A stretch of 32,890 bases of DNA from Phormidium tenue FACHB-886 (lineage in GTDB: Bacteria; Cyanobacteriota; Cyanobacteriia; Elainellales; Elainellaceae): assembly GCF_014764505.1 (NCBI RefSeq), contig NZ_JACXWX010000057.1:1-32890 (forward strand). Direction: 5' to 3'. This document shows, piece after piece, positions 11,246 to 21,794 of the stretch (positions are counted from its first letter, which is position 1; the number at the start of each line of letters is the position of its first letter). The position numbers and the translations under genes are program-made. Below the pieces are notes generated by a model. That model was not told the origin of the DNA, searched no databases, and worked only from the letters and a program-made list of their open reading frames with translations.

Positions 11246-12190
11246 TCAGGCAATACAATCTTGCACGCTTTTGCTAATCCAGAGGACGTTTTTGCTGTTC
11301 TGCTGCACGACCTTTGGAGAAACCCCAATGATGCGCTTAAAGTGACGGCTGAGATGACTCTGGTCGTAGAAGCCAACCTGAGAAGCAACCTCAGCAATCG
11401 CCATATCCCCAATTTGCAGCAGCTCCTTCGCTCGTTCAACTCGGCAGCGAATCTGATATTGATGTGGCGCTAAACCCGTTGACTGCTTGAACAAACGCGC
11501 AAAATGATACGAACTCAAATTGACCTCAGCCGCAATTTCATCAAGGCTCAAGTCTTGAGCGAGATGGTCTTGAATGTAAGCGATCGCCCGCTGCAACCGC
11601 AGCTTAGATAGCCCACCTGCCCGTTGCTGCACAGATTTCTCAATACTGCTGTAGGCTCTCACTAGATGAACTGCTAACGCATTGGACAACGACTCAGCAT
11701 AGAGACGATTTCCCAATTTGTCAGACTCCAACTCGCTTAGGAGTAAGTGACCCAAATGCTGAATCTGCAGATCTGCCGCTGCAAACCGACTGACGATCTC
11801 AACCTGCGCTGCATTAGCCTCAATTACTTCTGCCGCAACCTTGACAATGAACGCGGGCTCAAAGCATAAATGCAAAACATTAACTTCACGATCCCAAACC
11901 CACTCAGTTGCATGATCGGCAGGAGTCAAAATTATATCTCCCTTTGCGATCTCCCCTTCGTAAAGCTGTCCATTAAGGTGTTGCATCAAGCGATAAGGAA
12001 AGCCGCAGTTTAAAGTGATCAGGTGGTGTGAAAGCGGCGGGGAAACTAACTCATTAGCGGGATGGTGATGATATTCAACCGTAATGCCATTCCAGCCTTT
12101 TGACTGACTCGAAAACACTGGTGGGTCAGGCAGCTCATCGAGGAGGCTGATCGATTTGCAGGATTCATCTTCAGATTTGCTCTGAGGCAT
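11246..12190 (-). CDS. AraC family transcriptional regulator
   Basis: A 314-residue regulator from ATG at 12190 (GGAAG five bases before it; a longer frame to 12226 is less likely). The N-terminal half (about 25-170) looks like a cupin-type ligand-sensing domain. The C-terminal about 100 residues carry two helix-turn-helix motifs of the AraC/XylS type: LSLDEIAAEVNLSSYHFARLFKQSTG and IAEVASQVGFYDQSHLSRHFKRIIGVSP. It heads the leftward gene run (VOC, propeller, VOC, VOC, crotonase) and faces the rightward SDR/SnoaL/AKR run across about 400 bases, so I infer that it controls one or both arms in response to the pathway substrate. Its own promoter should lie at 12190-12300. Confidence 0.93.
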   Translation of the reverse strand: MPQSKSEDESCKSISLLDELPDPPVFSSQSKGWNGITVEYHHHPANELVSPPLSHHLITLNCGFPYRLMQHLNGQLYEGEIAKGDIILTPADHATEWVWDREVNVLHLCFEPAFIVKVAAEVIEANAAQVEIVSRFAAADLQIQHLGHLLLSELESDKLGNRLYAESLSNALAVHLVRAYSSIEKSVQQRAGGLSKLRLQRAIAYIQDHLAQDLSLDEIAAEVNLSSYHFARLFKQSTGLAPHQYQIRCRVERAKELLQIGDMAIAEVASQVGFYDQSHLSRHFKRIIGVSPKVVQQNSKNVLWISKSVQDCIA

Positions 12191-12422
12191 TACACTTCCA
12201 GACGCTATAGAGCAAGTATATAGCAAGGATTGGAACAGAACCTTAGTGTGAATTAAATCCGGTTTATGTCATAGCAATATTTACTCATTCTTGTCGGGAA
12301 TGCGAATTACATCGCGGATTGCGATCGCTAGAATGGCTAGCTGCCCAACAACCACAGTGCTTTCACTCCCCCAAGCCGCCTAATTTAGGGTCTACATCAA
12401 CTGCCTATATAGAACAAAATTT

Positions 12423-12589: not shown

Positions 12590-13483
12590 ATGTCGGATAT
12601 TAGTCGCCGCAAAATATTAGCCACTGGAGCGATCGGAGCCGCTGGATTTGCTGCTGCGATCGCCGCTAAACCTGCCCAAGCTAATACTCAAAATCCACCT
12701 GCCCCTCAGACCACAGCCAATGCCAACGGACGCTTCGCCAACAAAGTCGTACTTATTACTGGAGCTACATCTGGAATTGGAGAAGGCACTGCGCGAGCCT
12801 TTGCAATGGAAGGGGCGATCGTTCATTTTTGTGGACGACGGGAATCCTTGGGAGAACAGGTAGCTCAAAGCATTCGAGATGCAGGCGGCAAAGCGACCTA
12901 TCAACGGGCAGACGTGCGGATTGATGAGGATGTGAAAGCATTGACCGATACAGCTGCGGAGCAATATGGACGGATTGACATTGCCTTTAATAATGCAGGT
13001 GTGTTTCTCGATCCAGCACCGCTGCATGAGCTGTCGATCGAAACTTACCAAGATCTGATGCTCACCAACGCAATGGGCGTATTTCTAGCAATGAAATATG
13101 AGATTCCCCAGATGCGACAACAGGGCGGGGGGGTGATCGTCAATATGGCTTCTGTCTCTGGGCACGTTGGTTTTGCCAATTTCAGTCCCTACAACGCTAG
13201 TAAACACGCTGTCATTGGCTTGACTAAAGCGGCAGCCCTGGAGAATGCCGATCACAATATTCGCATCAATTCGATATCGCCTCTTGCAGTTGATACACCT
13301 ATGCTGCGGCAATCCTTTCAGGATCAGGGGGTGACCTATGAACAGATAACACCAACGATGGTAACAAAGCGGATTATGACCGCTGAAGAAATGGCAAGAG
13401 CGGTGATGTTTCTCTCTTCAGACGATGCGACGTCTGTCACAGGCATGGATCTAGATGTGACTGGAGGTCACTTATCCCGTTAG
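12590..13483 (+). CDS. SDR family oxidoreductase with Tat signal
   Basis: A 297-residue short-chain dehydrogenase with an N-terminal twin-arginine signal (DISRRKILATG, hydrophobic Ala/Gly run, likely cleavage after AQA at about residue 31). The SDR core follows: dinucleotide motif TGATSGIG (58-65), RR after beta-2 (CGRRESL, favouring NADP(H)), NNAG (134-137), Ser in MASVSG (about 188), catalytic Y201 and K205 in SPYNASK, and C-terminal VTGMDLDVTGG. Length without signal is normal for classical SDRs. A nicotinamide-dependent enzyme carrying a Tat signal implies cofactor loading before export or tight cofactor retention. It opens the rightward arm opposite the AraC gene. The ribosome-binding site before 12590 is weak. 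Confidence 0.9.
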   Translation: MSDISRRKILATGAIGAAGFAAAIAAKPAQANTQNPPAPQTTANANGRFANKVVLITGATSGIGEGTARAFAMEGAIVHFCGRRESLGEQVAQSIRDAGGKATYQRADVRIDEDVKALTDTAAEQYGRIDIAFNNAGVFLDPAPLHELSIETYQDLMLTNAMGVFLAMKYEIPQMRQQGGGVIVNMASVSGHVGFANFSPYNASKHAVIGLTKAAALENADHNIRINSISPLAVDTPMLRQSFQDQGVTYEQITPTMVTKRIMTAEEMARAVMFLSSDDATSVTGMDLDVTGGHLSR

Positions 13484-13488
13484 CCTCG

Positions 13489-13566
13489 ATGCCCATCTCA
13501 ATGTCCAGATTCTCAATGCCCAGATTCTCGATACCCAGATTCTCGATGCCCAGATTCTCAATGCCT
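13489..13566. repeat. 15-bp tandem repeat array, about five units
   Basis: Directly after the SDR stop, units of the form ATGCCCAGATTCTCR follow each other at 15-base steps: a partial unit at 13489-13500, then 13501, 13516, 13531 and 13546, and a degenerate unit from 13561. Units differ by one or two bases (ATGTCC, ATACCC). There are no spacers, so it is not CRISPR. The 27-base gap to the next gene and the multiple-of-three period suggest replication slippage, and the array may alter transcript coupling between the two genes. Confidence 0.9.
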
Positions 13567-13592
13567 AGCTTTGCTCACAAACTCAAGATGTT

Positions 13593-14216
13593 ATGAGCCA
13601 CAAAAAACAGTATCTCAGCTTATCTCGCCGGGTTTTCACAGGTGGAATTGCTGGTTTCGCAGCGATCGCCACCGCCTATTTAGGTCGTGCTTCCGCTCAG
13701 TCTACTCCGCCCACCGCTGCAGCCACAGTGAACGACTCCAGATGGCAATATTTTCTTGATCGCGCTGAGATTATTGATGCAGTGAATGCAGTTGGGTTCT
13801 TCGCCGATCGCCAAGATTGGGCTGTCGTGCGTCGGCAGTTTGCAGAGGAGGTAGATATGGACTACACCTCATTGGCAGGAGGCGAACCGGTACGAGTAAA
13901 GGCAGACGACTTAATTCGGGGTTGGGAACAAGGGCTGTCTGCCTTACCTGCCACTCAGCACATGATTACAAATCACCAGGTCACTGTTGAAGGAGACGAG
14001 GCTCAATGTCTATCTTCGTTTCGGGCATGGCACTATTCACCCAACGATGAGGGTAGTCCGCTGTGGCATCTATATGGTTATTACACCCATCGATTTCAGC
14101 GTACTGCAGAAGGCTGGAAGATTATCAGCATGACGCTCACTAAAACAGCAGCAGAGGGCAACTTCGCCTTGTCGGGTTTAGCGTCTAGAGCCGGGGTCAC
14201 TCACACAGAGCAATAA
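13593..14216 (+). CDS. SnoaL/NTF2-like protein with Tat signal
   Basis: A 207-residue protein with a twin-arginine signal (LSRRVFTGG, hydrophobic stretch, probable cleavage after ASA) and a SnoaL-like (NTF2-fold) domain from about residue 50: RAEIIDAVNAVGFFADRQDW, HMITNHQVTVEGDEAQCLSSFRAWH, YGYYTHRFQRTAEGWKI. This fold serves polyketide cyclases, dehydratases and limonene-epoxide hydrolase-like enzymes. Catalytic residues cannot be fixed by eye, though the Asp/Tyr/His pattern near the N-terminus of the domain resembles SnoaL_4 members. It follows the Tat-SDR and precedes a second SnoaL-like gene 3 bases on, indicating co-translation. Confidence 0.85.
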   Translation: MSHKKQYLSLSRRVFTGGIAGFAAIATAYLGRASAQSTPPTAAATVNDSRWQYFLDRAEIIDAVNAVGFFADRQDWAVVRRQFAEEVDMDYTSLAGGEPVRVKADDLIRGWEQGLSALPATQHMITNHQVTVEGDEAQCLSSFRAWHYSPNDEGSPLWHLYGYYTHRFQRTAEGWKIISMTLTKTAAEGNFALSGLASRAGVTHTEQ

Positions 14217-14219
14217 ACT

Positions 14220-14759
14220 ATGACTCACCCACAAACTCGAAAAGATTTTCTGAAATTTGGAGCGATCTCTGGACTCTCGTTTCTTCTAGGAAGCCAGAGC
14301 CATTCTGAAAAGGCGATCGCCCAAACTGCTTCAACCGATCATCCAAATGTCGATTTAATTAGACGCTACTATGGAGCTTATGGATCAGGTCAATATGAGG
14401 TAATGCGAAACGAGTTTTTTGCACCAAATATTACCTGGACAATTCCCGGACATCATCCCCTTTCGGGCACCAAACAAGGAGTTGATGAGGTAATTGCTTT
14501 CCTGCAGCAGCTGGGCAAAGCTCAATTTCGGGCTGAAGTCTTGTTTTTTGGAGGCAACGATGATTACGTTGTGGATGTGCATCGCGGCTGGAGTAATTTA
14601 GAGCAAGGACAAAACATCGACCAGCTTTGGGCGCTATTATTTCGTATCGAGAACGATCGAATTGTTGAAGCAATCAACTTTCCGGGCGATCAACATGCGG
14701 CTGATACCTTTTTCTGGAGCGTGTATCCCCTAAAACCATTACCCGATCGCCTTGCTTAA
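14220..14759 (+). CDS. SnoaL-like protein with Tat-like signal
   Basis: A 179-residue protein whose stop-to-start distance from the preceding SnoaL gene is 3 bases. The N-terminus QTRKDFLKFGAISGLSFLLG has the FLK part of a Tat signal but RK in place of RR; cleavage after AIA is likely near residue 34. The SnoaL domain follows: VDLIRRYYGAYGSGQYEVMRNEFFAPNITWTIPGHHPLSGT, then DVHRGWSNLEQGQNIDQLWALLFRIENDRIVEAINFPGDQ. This is the ketosteroid-isomerase/SnoaL type seen in many small cyclases, isomerases and hydrolases. It is probably exported like its neighbours and acts in the same pathway; the reaction is unknown. Confidence 0.83.
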   Translation: MTHPQTRKDFLKFGAISGLSFLLGSQSHSEKAIAQTASTDHPNVDLIRRYYGAYGSGQYEVMRNEFFAPNITWTIPGHHPLSGTKQGVDEVIAFLQQLGKAQFRAEVLFFGGNDDYVVDVHRGWSNLEQGQNIDQLWALLFRIENDRIVEAINFPGDQHAADTFFWSVYPLKPLPDRLA

Positions 14760-14775
14760 CTCAACGTGCAACGCG

Positions 14776-14943
14776 TTCTATGGCATCTTCCAATTTTCAT
14801 TCATAACGGCTGACTTAGCTGCTGTCCGTCAAGGATTTATTCAACGGGGTATTCCGGTTGTCTAGGAGATTCAGAACGATGAGCTCGGCTTAAAGTTTCT
14901 CTTTATCCGAGACTTGAACGGCAATCTCATTCAATATGTTTAA
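14776..14943 (+). pseudogene. C-terminal remnant of a VOC-family gene
   Basis: A frame ending at the TAA at 14941-14943 reads TADLAAVRQGFIQRGIPVV, a TAG stop, then EIQNDELGLKFLFIRDLNGN and LIQYV. This is the second half of a VOC protein (compare NLIELVQ and NLIAIWE in the exported VOC genes of the same island). The in-frame TAG and the missing first half show that it is broken. It sits between SnoaL and the aldo/keto reductase, so the rightward arm once carried its own VOC gene. Confidence 0.75.
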
Positions 14944-14980
14944 CCCTTGGTAGTCTAAAGAATTTTAAGGAGTAACATTT

Positions 14981-16093
14981 ATGTCTCTCGATCGTTACTA
15001 CACTCTCGGACGTTCAGGTTTGCGGGTCAGCCGTCTTGCCCTCGGTACGATGACTTTTGGTACAGAATGGGGCTGGGGTGCAGATGAGGATACAGCCCGT
15101 CAGCTCTTCAACACATACATTGACGGGGGCGGAAATTTCGTCGATACCGCAGACTTGTACACCAACGGCACCAGCGAAGCGTGGATCAGCAAGTTCGTCG
15201 CAGAACGGGAACTGCGCGATCGCCTGGTGATCACCACCAAGTTTAGCTACAACGCTGAACCCGGCAACCCCAACGCCGGAGGCAACGGACGCAAAAACAT
15301 CTTACGGGCAGTCGAGGGCTCCCTCAAACGATTGGGCACAGATTACATCGATCTCTATATCCTCCACACCTGGGACAAGATTACGCCTGCTGAAGAGGTG
15401 ATGCGGACGCTGGATGATTTAGTTCGTTCGGGTAAAGTGCGTCATGTCGGGTTGAGTGATACCCCCTCCTGGTACGCGGCACGGGCACAAACACTAGCAG
15501 AGTGGCGTGGTTACGAACCGATTAGCACCTTGCAGCTTGAGTATTCGTTGGTAGAACGCAACATTGAGCGTGAGTTTGTACCACTAGGGTTGGAGTTGGG
15601 CATGGGTGTTATGGTGTGGAGCCCGTTGGCGAGTGGTTTGTTGAGCGGCAAATACAAGCCCAGTGAGGGTGGTTTCAGCGGTGGAGGTCGGCTGGATACG
15701 ATGCGAGGTAGCAATAACCCAGGGTTCCAAAAAATTTCAGAGCGAAACTGGAAAATTATTGCAGAACTAGAAAATGTTGCTAACGAACTTGGTCACAGCA
15801 TGGCGCAGGTAGCGGTAAATTGGACAGCGAATCAACCTGGCATCGGCTCTGTGATCGTAGGAGCTACCAAGCTATCCCAACTGGAGGACAACCTGAAAGC
15901 ATTGGATTTTGAGATTCCGGGTGAGCTGAGCGATCGCCTACAGGCAGCCAGCAGTCCTGAGCCGCAATTCCCCTATACCTTCTTCGGTCCTGAAATTCAG
16001 GGCATGATTCATGGAGGCAAACCAGTCGGCTCCAAACCAGAAGGATATTATCCTCATGTTCTGATTGAATCAGCGGGTGCGGGTGTCGCTTAA
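14981..16093 (+). CDS. Aldo/keto reductase
   Basis: A 370-residue cytosolic aldo/keto reductase with a TIM-barrel fold. The catalytic tetrad is visible: Asp and Tyr in FVDTADLY, Lys in VITTKFSYN and His in YILHTWD. NADPH-binding features near the C-terminus are VIVGATKLSQLEDNLKAL. The extended C-terminal tail after 330 is slightly longer than usual (310-330). AAGGAG stands 9-10 bases before the start. It lacks any export signal, unlike the preceding genes of the rightward arm. It is the last gene of that arm, ending before the hairpin at 16114-16155. Likely role: reduction of an aldehyde or ketone intermediate. Confidence 0.93.
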   Translation: MSLDRYYTLGRSGLRVSRLALGTMTFGTEWGWGADEDTARQLFNTYIDGGGNFVDTADLYTNGTSEAWISKFVAERELRDRLVITTKFSYNAEPGNPNAGGNGRKNILRAVEGSLKRLGTDYIDLYILHTWDKITPAEEVMRTLDDLVRSGKVRHVGLSDTPSWYAARAQTLAEWRGYEPISTLQLEYSLVERNIEREFVPLGLELGMGVMVWSPLASGLLSGKYKPSEGGFSGGGRLDTMRGSNNPGFQKISERNWKIIAELENVANELGHSMAQVAVNWTANQPGIGSVIVGATKLSQLEDNLKALDFEIPGELSDRLQAASSPEPQFPYTFFGPEIQGMIHGGKPVGSKPEGYYPHVLIESAGAGVA

Positions 16094-16113
16094 TCAGCAT
16101 TTATCCTGCAAAA

Positions 16114-16155
16114 AACAAAGATCTGACGTCGGATGGGTCGCGCCAGATCTTTGTT
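16114..16155 (-). terminator. Intrinsic terminator between convergent genes
   Basis: AACAAAGATCTG (16114-16125) and its exact complement (16144-16155) form a 12-pair stem with an 18-base loop. On the minus strand the stem is followed by a T-run (CTTTGTTTTTTGC), so it best serves the ndhK-hemerythrin unit, whose stop is 90 bases upstream. On the plus strand the stem follows the aldo/keto reductase stop by 20 bases and has only TTGTTCT after it, so it may act weakly in that direction too. Confidence 0.75.
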
Positions 16156-16245
16156 CTAATAGCCCTCTCGTAGTTCACCAACCTCGTACAAGTTCATCAA
16201 CCCCGTGCATCAACGGGTGCTCAACCCCTTTCCGAGGTGCAATTA

Positions 16246-17733
16246 CTATAAAGCTTCTCTAGTCCGAGCGGTCGAGTAGAGGAACAAGCTAAAAAGAATC
16301 GCAAAGGTCAGATCAATCACCCCTGAGAGGAGATAGAACGGATGAAGCCCCCCTATCAACGTGTGATAAGCCAGCACTATGAAAACACTCAATTGAGCAA
16401 AAATTCCTAGTTTTACAATAGCGTGATTCTGGGAGATATCCTGCCCCACCCACCAATAGCCAATTCCAATGATGAAGACCAATCCATACACTAGCTGCGA
16501 GTATTCAGGATTAGCAAGGGGTTCGGTGGCTAGCAGCTCACGAATCCATCGATCGCCGATTAGAAATATAACTGCTTCCACCCAGTTGATCACAGCCTTT
16601 GTTTGAAATACCAGCTTCCATGGAATCGAGTTATTCATGTAGATGAACCAAGAATTCTTTCGATCGCTACTGTTGTTCTGGCTAACTTGAGGTTGCGTAA
16701 CAGGAAAAGATTGCTGTTTCTGTTGTTCCTGCAGCTTGCTTTTTGCCGCTTTGAAATCGGTCGCTAGCTGCTTCTGCTGTTCATGACTCAAGTCATTCTG
16801 GAATCTGGGAAATATATCGCTTTCTTCTTGATCAATATGCTCTCGAACTGCGAGCCTTAGCCGCTCAATCTCAGACTTAAAGTTGGAAGCAGTGGGATCA
16901 AGCAACTTCATCTCGTCCAACATCTCTATTACGTGATCGGTCTGCTCAAAAATTTCTTGCATGCGATCGTAATAAGGGCGAACTGCTGGATAAAGAACCT
17001 GTTCTTCGGCTAAACCATGAACCCTAACATCCTGATAAAGCTGCCCAAAATACTCTTGAATTTTTTGAGGATCACTACTTCCTAGAATTTCTGCAAACAG
17101 AATATCTGACTTGCTGTGATCCATCAGAAGAAGATCCCGGATGCTCATTTCATCATCTGTGCGGGTGACAACGCTACCCACTACGCCCGTTAGAGCAGCG
17201 ATCGCATCCTCAGTTCTTGCCCATACCCCCTGATCGGGGTCTTGCCCAGTCAGTTCACGCACCCCCAATATTTCCAGCATTCCTTTGAGTTGTTCTTGGT
17301 GAGCACGGTTTTCAAAATTGATGGTATGCAGAGGAGCGATCGCAGATTCAGCATCAGCCCCTACAATCTGTGCTGCCTTATAAACAATCAACCCTGTCAT
17401 CGTCTGCTGGTGTTTGAGCAATTCATGCTGCAATACTTTCTCAGACAGGGTTAATTCAGAACCCTCCATCAGATTTTGAATATCTTTAAGATTTTGCTCA
17501 ACGCTTTCTTTAGGCTCACCCTGAATGCCGTATTGGATCATCACAGTATCTAGAATCCCTAGATTTTTTTGATCCTGTTCCAGCATGTCCTGTAGCCGTT
17601 GACGAATGTTGTCATCGTCAAGTGCATTCATCAGCATTTGCTCATTGAGAATTAGCAGATTTTGCAATGACTTCATCTCTGCCAATTGCATTGCAATTGC
17701 CGTGCGTTTTGCATCATCCAGCGTTACTGCCAT
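16246..17733 (-). CDS. Hemerythrin-like protein fused to a membrane domain
   Basis: A 495-residue protein of three parts. Residues 1-160 are helical and ferritin/DUF892-like, with LQHELLKHQQ. Residues 195-335 are a hemerythrin HHE domain with the usual di-iron ligand pattern: H206, H239xxxE243 (HGLAEEQVLYP), H267 and H299xxxE303 (REHIDQEESDIFP). After a Gln-rich linker, residues 370-490 contain about four membrane helices (around 380-394, 412-429, 440-457 and 465-486). Hemerythrin domains bind O2 or act in iron and oxygen sensing. The membrane anchor places the O2/iron site at the inner face of a membrane. It starts 3 bases after the ndhK stop, so the two are very probably co-transcribed. The fused architecture is unusual and suggests an oxygen- or redox-linked partner for the NdhK paralogue. 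Confidence 0.88.
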   Translation of the reverse strand: MAVTLDDAKRTAIAMQLAEMKSLQNLLILNEQMLMNALDDDNIRQRLQDMLEQDQKNLGILDTVMIQYGIQGEPKESVEQNLKDIQNLMEGSELTLSEKVLQHELLKHQQTMTGLIVYKAAQIVGADAESAIAPLHTINFENRAHQEQLKGMLEILGVRELTGQDPDQGVWARTEDAIAALTGVVGSVVTRTDDEMSIRDLLLMDHSKSDILFAEILGSSDPQKIQEYFGQLYQDVRVHGLAEEQVLYPAVRPYYDRMQEIFEQTDHVIEMLDEMKLLDPTASNFKSEIERLRLAVREHIDQEESDIFPRFQNDLSHEQQKQLATDFKAAKSKLQEQQKQQSFPVTQPQVSQNNSSDRKNSWFIYMNNSIPWKLVFQTKAVINWVEAVIFLIGDRWIRELLATEPLANPEYSQLVYGLVFIIGIGYWWVGQDISQNHAIVKLGIFAQLSVFIVLAYHTLIGGLHPFYLLSGVIDLTFAILFSLFLYSTARTREAL

Positions 17734-17736
17734 TTC

Positions 17737-18570
17737 TTATGCACCTACCTCTGAACTTCCTTCAACTTTCTGCTGGCTAGCGCTATCTACTTTAGCTTTC
17801 AAGCGAGGAGAGATTTCTTCAAGTTCAGCATCTCGATCGCGCTGCGTCGCCAGTGCAGGCAGCACACTAGTTCCCATCACCTCTAGCACGCTAGCAGGCG
17901 GATTTTGCCGATCGGCAGCCCGCAAATATTCTCCGGTAAAAATGGAATCTACCGGTTTCAGCTTGTGACCGATTGAATAATAGCGATGGGTTTGCGCCAT
18001 CATTCCCCGCTCTTGTAGTGATTCGTTCGCTATTTTCTTTCGCAGTTTGATAATGGCATCAATAATTGCTTCGGGACGGGGAGGGCAGCCTGGAATATAG
18101 ACATCGATCGGCAAAATTTTGTCTGCTCCGCGAATTGCCGTTGGAGAATCCATGCTGAACATGCCACCCGTAATCATGCAGGCTCCCATAGCAATCACAT
18201 ATTTGGGATCGGGCATCTGCTCATAGAGCCGCAGGGTGGGTTGCGCCATTTTCATGTTCAACGTGCCTGCCAAGATAATCAGATCGGCTTGGCGGGGGCT
18301 GGCCCGGGGGAGAAGCCCAAAGCGATCGAAATCAAAGCGAGAGCCGATCAGGGCTGCAAATTCAATGAAACAACAGGCCGTACCATACAGCAGAGGCCAC
18401 AGGCTAGAGAGCTTCGCCCAGTTGTGGAGGTCGTCAACCGTTGTCAGAATAACGTTTTCTGAAAGCTGCTTTGTAACTTGAGAATGTCCGATCGGATTCA
18501 TAAAAGAATCCTGCAGCTTAAAATCTGGCGCCTGAGGGGGTTGATCTGTATTAGAAAAACTATTTGTCAT
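17737..18570 (-). CDS. ndhK: NAD(P)H-quinone oxidoreductase subunit K-like protein (orphan copy)
   Basis: A 277-residue member of the NuoB/NdhK family, the subunit that holds iron-sulfur cluster N2 next to the quinone site of complex I. All four cluster cysteines are present: C66 and C67 (GTACCFIEF), C131 (GACMITGG) and C162 (PGCPPRPE). The core (about 35-230) is well conserved. The C-terminal tail after 230 is longer and charged. In cyanobacteria ndhK normally lies between ndhC and ndhJ. Here neither is present: the gene is followed by the hemerythrin fusion. It may be a second, specialised copy for a variant NDH-1 complex or a relocated sole copy; the window cannot decide. Confidence 0.9.
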
Positions 18571-19252: not shown

Positions 19253-19663
19253 TTAAGCAGCCTGCTCGCAGTTGACCATCCACGGCGTTCCGAATTGATC
19301 GACCAGCATGCCAAACCGGAATGCCCAGAAGGTTTGCTCGAATGGCATCTTCACCTTGCCGTTTTCTGCCAGCGCCTGAAAGATGCGTTCTGCCTCTGCT
19401 GATTCATCAATGCTGAGCTGCACGTAGAAACCTTGAGGAGCTTCAAAGTATCCAGGCGGGCAGTCAGACCCCATCAGGAGACGACCGCTCAAATCAAGGC
19501 AGACATGCATGATTTTGTCATGCCATTCAGCCGGCACCTGTTCTGCGCTAGGTGCATTCTCGTGGGTAAGCAGATTAATAATTTTGCCACCTAGACATTG
19601 CTCATAGAACTTGAACGCTGCCTCACAGTTTCCATTGAACATGAGATAGGTATTGACTTGCAT
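19253..19663 (-). CDS. PhnB-like VOC family protein
   Basis: A 136-residue soluble protein of the PhnB/3-demethylubiquinone methyltransferase-like branch of the VOC fold: YLMFNGNCEAAFKFYEQCLGG, then HVCLDLSGRLLMGSD, QLSIDESAEAERIFQALAENG and FWAFRFGMLVDQFGTPWMVN. Length is typical. GGAAGGAGCACACA precedes the start. It sits between two broken genes and another VOC gene, all reading left, opposite the ECF sigma factor. Similar small VOC, YCII and GFA genes accompany this class of sigma factor in other bacteria, so it may be a sigma target (inference). Substrate unknown. Confidence 0.9.
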   Translation of the reverse strand: MQVNTYLMFNGNCEAAFKFYEQCLGGKIINLLTHENAPSAEQVPAEWHDKIMHVCLDLSGRLLMGSDCPPGYFEAPQGFYVQLSIDESAEAERIFQALAENGKVKMPFEQTFWAFRFGMLVDQFGTPWMVNCEQAA

Positions 19664-19801
19664 TGTGTGCTCCTTCCATTGCTAGTAATTGAGAAATCTC
19701 TCTGTGTGAACCTGTATAGTTTTCCAGCCCCACTATTGCTGCATCCTCGGCAGCCTAGTCTCTATTTTGAAAATGCGCGATCGACGGCTTTGGAGTTTCT
19801 G

Positions 19802-20185
19802 TTAACGGCTGGCTGGCATTTCTTGCAATGCCCATGAATTGCCGTCGGGGTCACTGAAGTAAACGTATTTAATACCCCCTGGGTATTCCTCAACCTCACT
19901 CACTTCAACACCTCGGGCTGCAAGCGCTTTGCGAGCCTCGTTTATATCTGCCACAACTAGATGCAAGCCCTTAACCGTTCCAGGCTGCATTTCAGAACTC
20001 TCGCCCAAACCAGTTCCGATAACAATCGAACAGGCCGATCCAGGGGGTGTTAGTTGAACAACTCTCATGGTGTCACTAGGCTGAACATCGTGGTCTAAAT
20101 TAAATCCGACCTGTTCAACGTAGAAGCTCATGGCGCGATCAACGTCAGAAACTGGTAGCGGCACTAGCTCAAGTTTCATATCCAT
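19802..20185 (-). CDS. VOC family protein
   Basis: A 127-residue single VOC module from ATG 20185 (GGAG 11 bases before); the open frame extends to 20224 without a better start. The sequence KLELVPLPVSDVDRAMSFYVEQVGFNLDHD, then MRVVQLTPPGSACSIVIG, LHLVVADINEARKALAARGVEVSE and YFSDPDGNSWALQEMP is a standard VOC layout. The first His is replaced (ELVPLPV), while the later His (GLHLVVAD) and Gln/Glu region remain, so metal binding is uncertain. It is divergent from the sigma-factor gene across 355 bases. Confidence 0.88.
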   Translation of the reverse strand: MDMKLELVPLPVSDVDRAMSFYVEQVGFNLDHDVQPSDTMRVVQLTPPGSACSIVIGTGLGESSEMQPGTVKGLHLVVADINEARKALAARGVEVSEVEEYPGGIKYVYFSDPDGNSWALQEMPASR

Positions 20186-20224
20186 CTCTATTTCTACTCC
20201 TTCTCTTTTCCATCTTGCAAACAT

Positions 20225-20540: not shown

Positions 20541-20547
20541 ATGACTC
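20358..20547. repeat. Imperfect tandem duplication upstream of the sigma factor
   Basis: Two copies of about 79 bases, offset by 110 bases. Copy A at 20358-20436 and copy B at 20468-20547 share TCTTTCC, CTTGTAAGTAARTCGAA-like sequence, ATCGACA and AGAAA(A)TTTTTATCATCAG. In copy B the block runs into the sigma factor ATG at 20541; in copy A the corresponding triplet is ACG, so no gene starts there. The duplication has doubled the promoter and leader. Confidence 0.8.
20486..20511 (+). promoter_or_regulatory. Candidate ECF-type promoter (proximal copy)
   Basis: AGTCGA (20486-20491), a 16-base spacer and CGAC (20508-20511), 29 bases before the sigma factor start. This resembles the TGTCGA / CGA(T)C pattern that I recall for ECF42 promoters, so the gene may be self-activated. 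The duplicated copy has AATCGA (20376-20381), a 17-base spacer and CGAC (20399-20402). Confidence 0.45.
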
Positions 20548-21794
20548 CAAACACAAAACCAGACGTAAACCAAGCGATCGCCTCCGTTTATCGTGCGGAT
20601 TGGGGTCGAATTGTTGCCACTTTAATCCGGCTGGTTGGCGATTTTGATGTGGCTGAAGAGGCAGCACAAGAAGCCTTTACAGCCGCTGTAAATCAGTGGC
20701 AGACTGCTGGCATCCCCGAGCTTCCACGTGCGTGGATTATTCAGACTGCTCGCTACAAAGCCATCGATCGGCTCCGCCGCCGCACACGACTCACGGAAAA
20801 ACTGGAATGGTATGCCGCATCTGGTTTGATCCCGACTAGTCAAGAGCCGAACTACGACAGTGGCGAAATCCCAGACGAGCGACTGCGGCTGATCTTTACC
20901 TGTTGCCACCCCGCGCTGGCGATCGAGGCTCAGGTTGCTTTAACGCTGCGGATGCTAGGTGGGCTGGAGACAGACGAAATCGCACGGGCCTTCCTCGTGC
21001 CCACAGCAACCATGGCACAACGGCTGGTACGCGCTAAGCGCAAGATCCGCGATGCGGGCATCCCCTACAAGGTGCCAGATGCAAACGATCTGCCCACTCG
21101 GGTGGAAGCAGTGCTAACGGTGATCTATCTAATCTTCAACGAAGGCTACGCAGCGACAAGGGGCGAGGCGATGGTGAGAGCCGAGCTTTGTGCAGAAGCG
21201 ATCCGGCTGGGTCGCCTTGTAAGGACGTTAATGGCACCGCAACCGCCAGCAGAAGTAACAGCGCTGATTGCGCTCATGTTGCTGCATGACTCGCGTCGCG
21301 ATGCCCGTTTGGATCAAGCTGGCGATCTCGTCTTGCTCGAAGATCAGGATCGCCGCCGTTGGGACAGGCAGCAGATTGCTGAGGCGCTGCCGCTGGTTGA
21401 AGAAGCACTGCGCAGTGGGACAGGACCGTTTGCCCTGCAGGCAGCGATCGCGGCGCTGCACTGTCAAGCGGCGCGAGCCGAAGAGACAGACTGGTTGCAG
21501 ATCGTTCGGCTTTACGATTTGCTTGAACGCTTGCAGCCCTCACCCATTGTGTCGCTGAATCGGGCGGTAGCGATCGCGATGGTAGCGGGACCTCAGGCAG
21601 CGCTTGTCCTCATTGACACGCTTGCCACCCAGCTTGATGGCTATCATCTGTTTCACGCTGCCCGTGCTGATCTGCTACGTCGCATTGGGGATCTGAAGGA
21701 AGCTGCACAGAGCTACACACGAGCACTTGCGCTAGTCACAAATGATAGCGAACGCCGCTTTCTCGAACGTCGACTGCAGGACATTCAGTCCTAA
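20541..21794 (+). CDS. ECF sigma factor with C-terminal TPR-like extension (ECF42 type)
   Basis: A 417-residue RNA polymerase sigma factor. Region 2 is at about 15-85 (VGDFDVAEEAAQEAF, LPRAWIIQTARYKAIDRLRR), region 4 at about 115-170 (QVALTLRMLGGLETDEIARAF, TMAQRLVRAKRKIR). The segment IPDERLRLIFTCCHPAL and the 240-residue helical C-terminal extension (DUF6596, TPR-like, with LNRAVAIAMVAGPQAAL) are marks of the ECF42 class. That class needs its extension for activity and has no classical anti-sigma factor; its neighbours are often YCII/DGPF, GFA or VOC genes. That agrees with the leftward cluster here. It probably turns on its own gene from the duplicated promoter motifs and perhaps the VOC genes. 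Confidence 0.92.
   Translation: MTPNTKPDVNQAIASVYRADWGRIVATLIRLVGDFDVAEEAAQEAFTAAVNQWQTAGIPELPRAWIIQTARYKAIDRLRRRTRLTEKLEWYAASGLIPTSQEPNYDSGEIPDERLRLIFTCCHPALAIEAQVALTLRMLGGLETDEIARAFLVPTATMAQRLVRAKRKIRDAGIPYKVPDANDLPTRVEAVLTVIYLIFNEGYAATRGEAMVRAELCAEAIRLGRLVRTLMAPQPPAEVTALIALMLLHDSRRDARLDQAGDLVLLEDQDRRRWDRQQIAEALPLVEEALRSGTGPFALQAAIAALHCQAARAEETDWLQIVRLYDLLERLQPSPIVSLNRAVAIAMVAGPQAALVLIDTLATQLDGYHLFHAARADLLRRIGDLKEAAQSYTRALALVTNDSERRFLERRLQDIQS

Follow-up and report, generated by a model that had tools for sequence, protein, structure and literature searches.

Within 32,890 nucleotides of the genome of Phormidium tenue FACHB-886 (contig NZ_JACXWX010000057.1; this whole stretch is referred to here as the window), the minus strand encodes an extra isoform of NdhK, the subunit of the NDH-1 complex that holds 4Fe-4S cluster N2, followed by a protein in which ferritin-like, hemerythrin-like, and membrane parts are fused (Table 1). 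A sequence-only reading of this DNA had described an NdhK-like protein with all four N2 cysteines, encoded elsewhere than between ndhC and ndhJ and lying 3 bases from a hemerythrin fusion gene, with a common terminator at 16114-16155, and this description of the locus proved accurate. The cysteines C66, C67, C131, and C162 are all found in the alignment, neither ndhC nor ndhJ adjoins the window copy, the spacing is 3 bases, and a stable hairpin folds after the gene pair (-27.1 kcal/mol, z -5.1, 0 of 200 shuffles equally stable), with a six-U run on its 3' side. A simple terminator scanner, the loops of which were limited to 8 bases, missed this hairpin. The two genes likely form one transcription unit in the window, and both appear constrained, with nonsynonymous divergence (dN) of 0.13-0.20 against synonymous divergence (dS) of 0.97-2.3 in five comparisons in which dS was partly saturated. 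The values were 0.13-0.20 and 1.2-2.3 for the ndhK gene in three of these comparisons and 0.13-0.17 and 0.97-1.8 for the fusion gene; in a comparison with canonical NdhK made alongside, dS was unusable.

Table 1. Features of the two-gene unit, with positions in the window.
Feature	Position	Strand	Basis
ndhK-M, encoding an extra NdhK of 277 aa (NDH-1 subunit with 4Fe-4S cluster N2)	17737..18570	-	open reading frame, Pfam/NCBIfam, clade, fixed residues
Codons of N2 ligands C66 and C67	18370..18375	-	alignment
Codons of N2 ligand C131 and diagnostic M132 (canonical: Thr in 49/49 rows)	18175..18180	-	alignment
Codon of N2 ligand C162	18085..18087	-	alignment
Gap of 3 bases, ndhK-M stop to fusion-gene ATG	17734..17736	-	sequence
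Fusion gene: ferritin-like, hemerythrin-like (HHE), and four-helix membrane part, 495 aa	16246..17733	-	open reading frame, Pfam, model, folds
N-terminal ferritin-like (YciF/Dps-type) bundle, ~residues 1-165	17239..17733	-	model, fold match; conserved E104, H108, E141, H145
Hemerythrin-like HHE domain, ~residues 198-341	16711..17142	-	Pfam, model, fold match; conserved H206, H239, E243, H299, E303
C-terminal four-helix, probably membrane, part, ~residues 372-487	16273..16620	-	model; separate adjoining open reading frame in six relatives
Terminator-like hairpin 3' of the two-gene unit	16112..16157	-	folding

With 92.8 bits, the window NdhK exceeds the Pfam Oxidored_q6 cut-off of 27, and with 237 bits that of the NCBIfam NuoB subfamily, 116; the genome encodes three ndhK genes above the cut-off of Pfam PF01058. 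One lies in a canonical ndhC-K-J operon on contig C1, the second ndhK that the sequence-only reading had proposed looking for, one is an orphan on contig C2, after which come genes of the DUF4383 and HLIP-like types, and the last is the window copy, which is therefore not the only ndhK of this genome. The intact ndhC-K-J operon rules out a single relocated ndhK. Both ndhC and ndhJ flank the C1 copy and neither adjoins the window or C2 copy, although no genome-wide search for extra ndhC or ndhJ was made. The window protein is 82% identical to the C2 copy over 233 aa and 75% identical to the canonical copy over 223 aa.

A quick tree was made from 89 NdhK rows (49 canonical and 40 extra; all trees reported here are of this kind, without bootstrap). 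In it, 23 of the extra rows, both orphans of the window genome among them, form a clade with a Shimodaira-Hasegawa-like approximate likelihood ratio test (SH-aLRT) value of 100. Because Scytonema hyalinum was entered twice, these rows represent 22 proteins. We refer to the clade as NdhK-M because the name NdhK2 is already in print for slr8031, the copy on Synechocystis plasmid pSYSG, in the part of PMC7058544 consulted, which cites work then in revision for it. The four N2 ligands are kept in 88 of 88 aligned rows (22 NdhK-M, 49 canonical, 13 of a set designated group B, and 4 others), the window included. Six further positions are fixed in all 22 NdhK-M rows, as L100, L104, T112, M132, A149, and L153, where the 49 canonical rows have T100 (48 rows), I or V104, L or V112, T132 (49), V149 (48), and I153 (49). 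At these positions, the window protein has L, L, T, M, A, and L, the NdhK-M rather than the canonical set, and M132 is immediately C-terminal to N2 ligand C131. The same motif was met again in loci collected later. NdhK-M thus resembles the canonical cyanobacterial NdhK of the NDH-1L structures (6hum, 6khi) in its full-length homology, N2 cysteines, and, for the window copy, NuoB score, but differs from it in its fixed substitutions, its separate clade, and the position of the window gene outside ndhCKJ.

The extra NdhK proteins do not constitute one family, as 17 of the 40 extra rows, including the Synechocystis pSYSG copy, fall outside the NdhK-M clade. Like NdhK-M, slr8031 is an extra NdhK encoded outside ndhCKJ, but it sits outside the clade, on a long branch of unsure placement, and has the canonical residue at all six positions. 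The 13 group B rows, mainly from heterocystous cyanobacteria, are also encoded outside ndhCKJ but have canonical residues at the six positions and branch apart from NdhK-M. Nostocales and relatives have, besides NdhK-M, another distinct group of extra NdhK, in which a CCFMEFMAAYASRFDMERYG-type motif is combined with the canonical residues at those six positions (loci L095-L101, L105, L108, L111, L112, and L240-L248). NdhK-M itself is present in at least 13 of 36 genomes of the window's order, all of one family, and, by profile search and residue check, in at least 22 of a class-wide sample of 388 genomes. These 388-genome counts rest on the best matches listed, with single-match genomes taken as canonical without individual check, and leave out 18 two-match genomes, in three of which (G039, G060, and G091) the second copy is outside the clade, the other 15 being unclassified. 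Plasmid carriage was considered and rejected as well: of 247 plasmid records matched, only 4 exceeded 60% identity, all of them Synechocystis pSYSG copies.

The surroundings of NdhK-M were compared across 26 loci, comprising 19 found via NdhK searches, the window, and 6 in genomes reached via hemerythrin loci; in several, the context is cut by contig ends. Within 10 kb of NdhK-M, there are HLIP-like genes at 8 loci, CrtW-like genes at 6 (one representative scores 401 bits against the NCBIfam CrtW cut-off of 350), DUF4383 genes at 5, DUF4327 genes at 4, and hemerythrin and asparaginase/isoaspartyl-peptidase-like genes at 5 each. Extra ndhH and extra ndhI also occur at 5 loci each, one or the other being present at 8, and psaB3, encoding an alternative photosystem I subunit, occurs at 4. 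None of the tested neighbor genes was found at six canonical ndhK loci, where the available context reached approximately 6 kb in either direction and was thus shorter than the 10-kb limit applied to NdhK-M. In some genomes, the arrangement is tight: in G552, psaB3 is followed by adjoining ndhK-M and ndhH; in G575 and Myxacorys, ndhH and then ndhK-M lie side by side; in G560, ndhK-M overlaps ndhI; and in Calothrix PCC 7103 and FI2-JRJ7, both ndhI and ndhH are close to ndhK-M.

According to the parts of PMC6992706 and PMC6616624 consulted, the path from ferredoxin via N6 and N2 to plastoquinone is surrounded by the hydrophilic subunits NdhI, which carries clusters N6a and N6b, NdhK, which carries N2, and NdhH, the plastoquinone cavity being formed by these three together with NdhA. 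Whole-genome searches of 33 genomes found a full-length second ndhI in 4 and a full-length second ndhH in 5. The extra NdhI rows fall on one side of a branch with an SH-aLRT value of 96, and the extra NdhH rows require at least 3 changes, which puts the origin of extra NdhH at three or more points of the tree. Several rows labeled 'can' in these trees are extra copies (L389, L227, L325, and L319 for NdhI; L386, L228, and L224 for NdhH). The window genome also has an extra ndhH, but a role for it as the partner of NdhK-M is not supported, as the tree sets it apart from the NdhK-M-linked copies, beside the copy of G418. In these two members of the window's family, the window genome itself (L104 6824-8152, contig C1) and G418 (L417 6036-7220), the extra ndhH is divergent, branches apart from the other ndhH rows, and has a gene for an AraC-type regulator beside it; another member of that regulator family is encoded in the window at 11246-12226.

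All four psaB genes near ndhK-M (at L250, L251, and L252 and in G552) have the Gln insertion near FX that, in the consulted part of PMC10694217, marks PsaB3. A DNA pattern for this mark matches 28 of the 388 genomes and, among the matches listed, is present in 13 of the 22 NdhK-M genomes compared with 15 of the 366 others (Fisher 2e-11). With all 18 uncounted two-copy genomes taken as NdhK-M genomes, the figures among the same listed matches become 13 of 40 and 15 of 348 (Fisher 3e-7). Within single families, the motif is in 8 of 13 NdhK-M genomes versus 0 of 23 others in the family of the window (P 4e-5) and in 3 of 4 versus 8 of 38 in family f14 (P 0.049). In the window genome, there is no PsaB3 motif and no intact PsaB3, with one psaB above the cut-off. 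The interior of its contig C46 (76382-76558, in L369) does contain a 59-residue C-terminal piece of PsaB with the motif VQGWL, which all 16 PsaB3 rows share and none of the 32 remaining PsaB rows has. Judged from its sequence, this piece is likely a decayed psaB3, and given this remnant, the lineage of the window seems to have lost PsaB3. In Scytonema hyalinum (L356) and G404 (L430), the psaB adjoining psaA belongs to the PsaB3 type, and it is the only one found above the cut-off in either genome. PsaB3 parallels NdhK-M as an alternative electron-transfer isoform altered beside an Fe-S cluster and quinone, according to the consulted parts of PMC10694217 and PMC4582080, and is linked to it as described above, but it belongs to photosystem I, not NDH-1. 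In PMC4582080, PsaB3 is named PsaB2, as in N. punctiforme, and a predicted suitability of it for anaerobic conditions is mentioned; this is the one, indirect hint of oxygen for the putative oxygen-responsive or protective role that the sequence-only reading had suggested.

The product of the gene downstream of ndhK-M belongs to Pfam Hemerythrin (PF01814; 50.7 bits, cut-off 25.3) and falls far short of the NCBIfam equivalogs for RIC/YtfE, a di-iron protein of Fe-S repair (20.5 of 204.7 bits), and PA2171, a persister protein that binds ribosomes (46.4 of 190). Its AlphaFold2 model consists of a pair of helical bundles and, C-terminal to them, a part of four helices, with a mean predicted local distance difference test (pLDDT) score of 81, a predicted template modeling (pTM) score of 0.46, and residues 343-369 disordered. 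By VIA-align, in which even helical bundles that are not closely related can reach Z values of approximately 14, there is a match of the N-terminal bundle to YcfI 2gyq (Z 16.7, root-mean-square deviation 3.8, 150 residues aligned), YciE, YciF, and Dps and of the second to the HHE protein 6q09, an Rv2633c homolog (Z 18.5, root-mean-square deviation 2.2, 151 residues aligned); Foldseek with the whole model returned 0 matches at E <= 0.001. The predicted folds of the two soluble domains resemble those of these known proteins, from which the fusion differs in having both domains and a membrane part in one chain. The putative metal ligands of both bundles show at least 97% conservation among 78 proteins, but H268 of the window protein varies. 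Relatives of the soluble part are common, being found in 61 of 386 genomes. Of the 80 best hemerythrin loci, 8 include the membrane part, which is fused at 2 of them and encoded by an adjoining open reading frame at the other 6, so the fusion unites two genes that adjoin one another elsewhere.

Whether the fusion gene and ndhK-M belong together functionally is a separate matter. The sequence-only reading had looked to conservation of the pair across cyanobacteria, and this did not hold, as direct adjacency is found only in the window among the 26 NdhK-M loci; a conserved ndhK-hemerythrin operon as a general rule can be ruled out. There is not far from an even chance that the juxtaposition is accidental, with the two genes transcribed together in this genome only and sharing no joint function. 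Such an accident would fit the three closest NdhK-M relatives (G397, G396, and G394), which have no hemerythrin gene in the collected context, and the closest full-length relatives of the fusion (in Myxacorys and FACHB-502), which have no ndhK within 6 kb. It is harder to reconcile with the 3-base spacing and common hairpin, or with the hemerythrin genes that four other genomes have within 10 kb of NdhK-M (FACHB-471 at 2.0 kb, Calothrix PCC 7103 at 3.5 kb, Scytonema hyalinum at 6.0 kb, and Chlorogloeopsis PCC 6912 at 6.9 kb), three of these loci, including that of Calothrix, having been reached via the hemerythrin search. Approached from the hemerythrin side, NdhK-M is in the 6-kb flanks of 3 of the 80 best loci where 0.1-0.2 would be expected (P 0.0002-0.001). 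The link between NdhK-M and hemerythrin is suggestive but not settled, and the fusion gene is most reasonably regarded as part of one stress neighborhood with ndhK-M that, in the window genome, has ended up directly downstream of the latter.

For NdhK-M itself, we lean, without great assurance, toward an explanation in which it substitutes for NdhK in part of the NDH-1 complexes, those with a retuned electron path that serve cyclic electron flow with a modified photosystem I under stress, with the fusion protein handling iron or reactive oxygen. NdhK-M would most likely take the place of NdhK in some complexes and would there retune the final step of electron transfer from ferredoxin to plastoquinone; in several lineages, extra genes for the adjoining subunits of the path, NdhI and/or NdhH, stand beside ndhK-M. 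The recurrent neighborhood with PsaB3 and light-stress genes leads us to think that the modified NDH-1 probably serves cyclic flow around PsaB3-type photosystem I under stress, and the fusion protein of the window probably acts near the membrane. The variant of NDH-1 that the sequence-only reading had put forward is supported by the separate clade, the fixed substitutions, the retained ndhCKJ, the constraint, and the repeated extra ndhH and ndhI neighbors. Several observations pull the other way. Among the matches listed, 9 of the 22 NdhK-M genomes, the window genome included, are without the PsaB3 motif, and 15 PsaB3 genomes are not shown to carry NdhK-M; as the genomes are related, the Fisher value also overstates their independence, and within family f14 it is 0.049. 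A single NdhI is encoded in the window genome, the extra NdhH of which is of the different, AraC-regulator-linked lineage. At 5 of the 26 NdhK-M loci, there is no tested neighbor gene, hemerythrin proximity from the NdhK side (1 of 19, expected 0.1-0.2, P 0.10-0.20) is within chance, and the hemerythrin gene near ndhK-M in Calothrix PCC 7103 is broken in two by approximately 1 kb of inserted DNA with a 308-aa open reading frame on the opposite strand (L265 4179-6360).

NdhK-M could instead be a dosage or repair copy equivalent to NdhK, an extra supply of a labile N2 subunit that restores NDH-1 after stress, with the neighbors simply constituting a general stress island. Its identity to the NdhK of the same genome (73-82%), the retention of all N2 cysteines, and the HLIP-like, CrtW-like, and stress-type genes nearby are all in keeping with this, but we regard it as unlikely, given that six positions are fixed differently from the 49 canonical rows, that the clade has been kept apart over several families, which would not be expected of interchangeable copies, and that extra ndhH or ndhI has been recruited alongside at 8 of the 26 loci. 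A more radical departure would place NdhK-M outside NDH-1 altogether, in a small Fe-S or hydrogenase-like module with extra NdhH, soluble or membrane attached, from which electrons would go to a different partner, perhaps the hemerythrin protein. NdhK and NdhH are homologs of hydrogenase subunits, the orphan location is without ndhC or ndhJ, and ndhK-M and ndhH form gene pairs in Myxacorys, G575, and G552. Such a module is nonetheless highly improbable, as 21 of the 26 loci have no nearby ndhH, and the strong identity of NdhK-M to NdhK, together with the score of the G552 NdhH partner in the NdhH equivalog (799 bits, cut-off 583), suggests that the NDH-1 interfaces have been kept. Returning to replacement of NdhK within NDH-1, a bolder form of it would make NdhI, NdhK, and NdhH isoforms a swappable electron wire that, together with PsaB3, constitutes an alternative circuit between photosystem I and NDH-1, with Fe-S and quinone energetics retuned to suit light stress or low oxygen and with the fusion protein as an accessory; this we offer only tentatively, with the balance against it.

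Elsewhere in the window, a row of plus-strand genes at 12590-16093, convergent with the ndhK-M unit, encodes a short-chain dehydrogenase, two SnoaL-like proteins, and an aldo-keto reductase. An extracytoplasmic function (ECF)-type sigma factor with a DUF6596 domain is encoded at 20541-21794, with two glyoxalase-family genes nearby at 19253-20224.

NdhK isoforms as such have been published; full-text searches, judged by titles and the beginnings of abstracts, returned no NdhK-M clade, no extra ndhI/ndhH/ndhK sets, and no linkage of NdhK to PsaB3. The location, in relatives, of NdhK-M and extra subunit genes near an alternative photosystem I gene suggests a specialized, stress-linked form of photosynthetic cyclic electron flow. 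The variety of cyanobacterial NDH-1 is usually described in terms of the NdhD and NdhF isoforms of the membrane arm, and if the explanation favored here is true, isoforms on the path from ferredoxin via N6 and N2 to plastoquinone would represent a second axis of NDH-1 specialization. The significance of PsaB3 remained to be resolved according to the consulted part of a 2023 paper (PMC10694217), and the link to NdhK-M makes this question testable, as an alternative cyclic pathway under common regulation could be looked for in strains with both genes.

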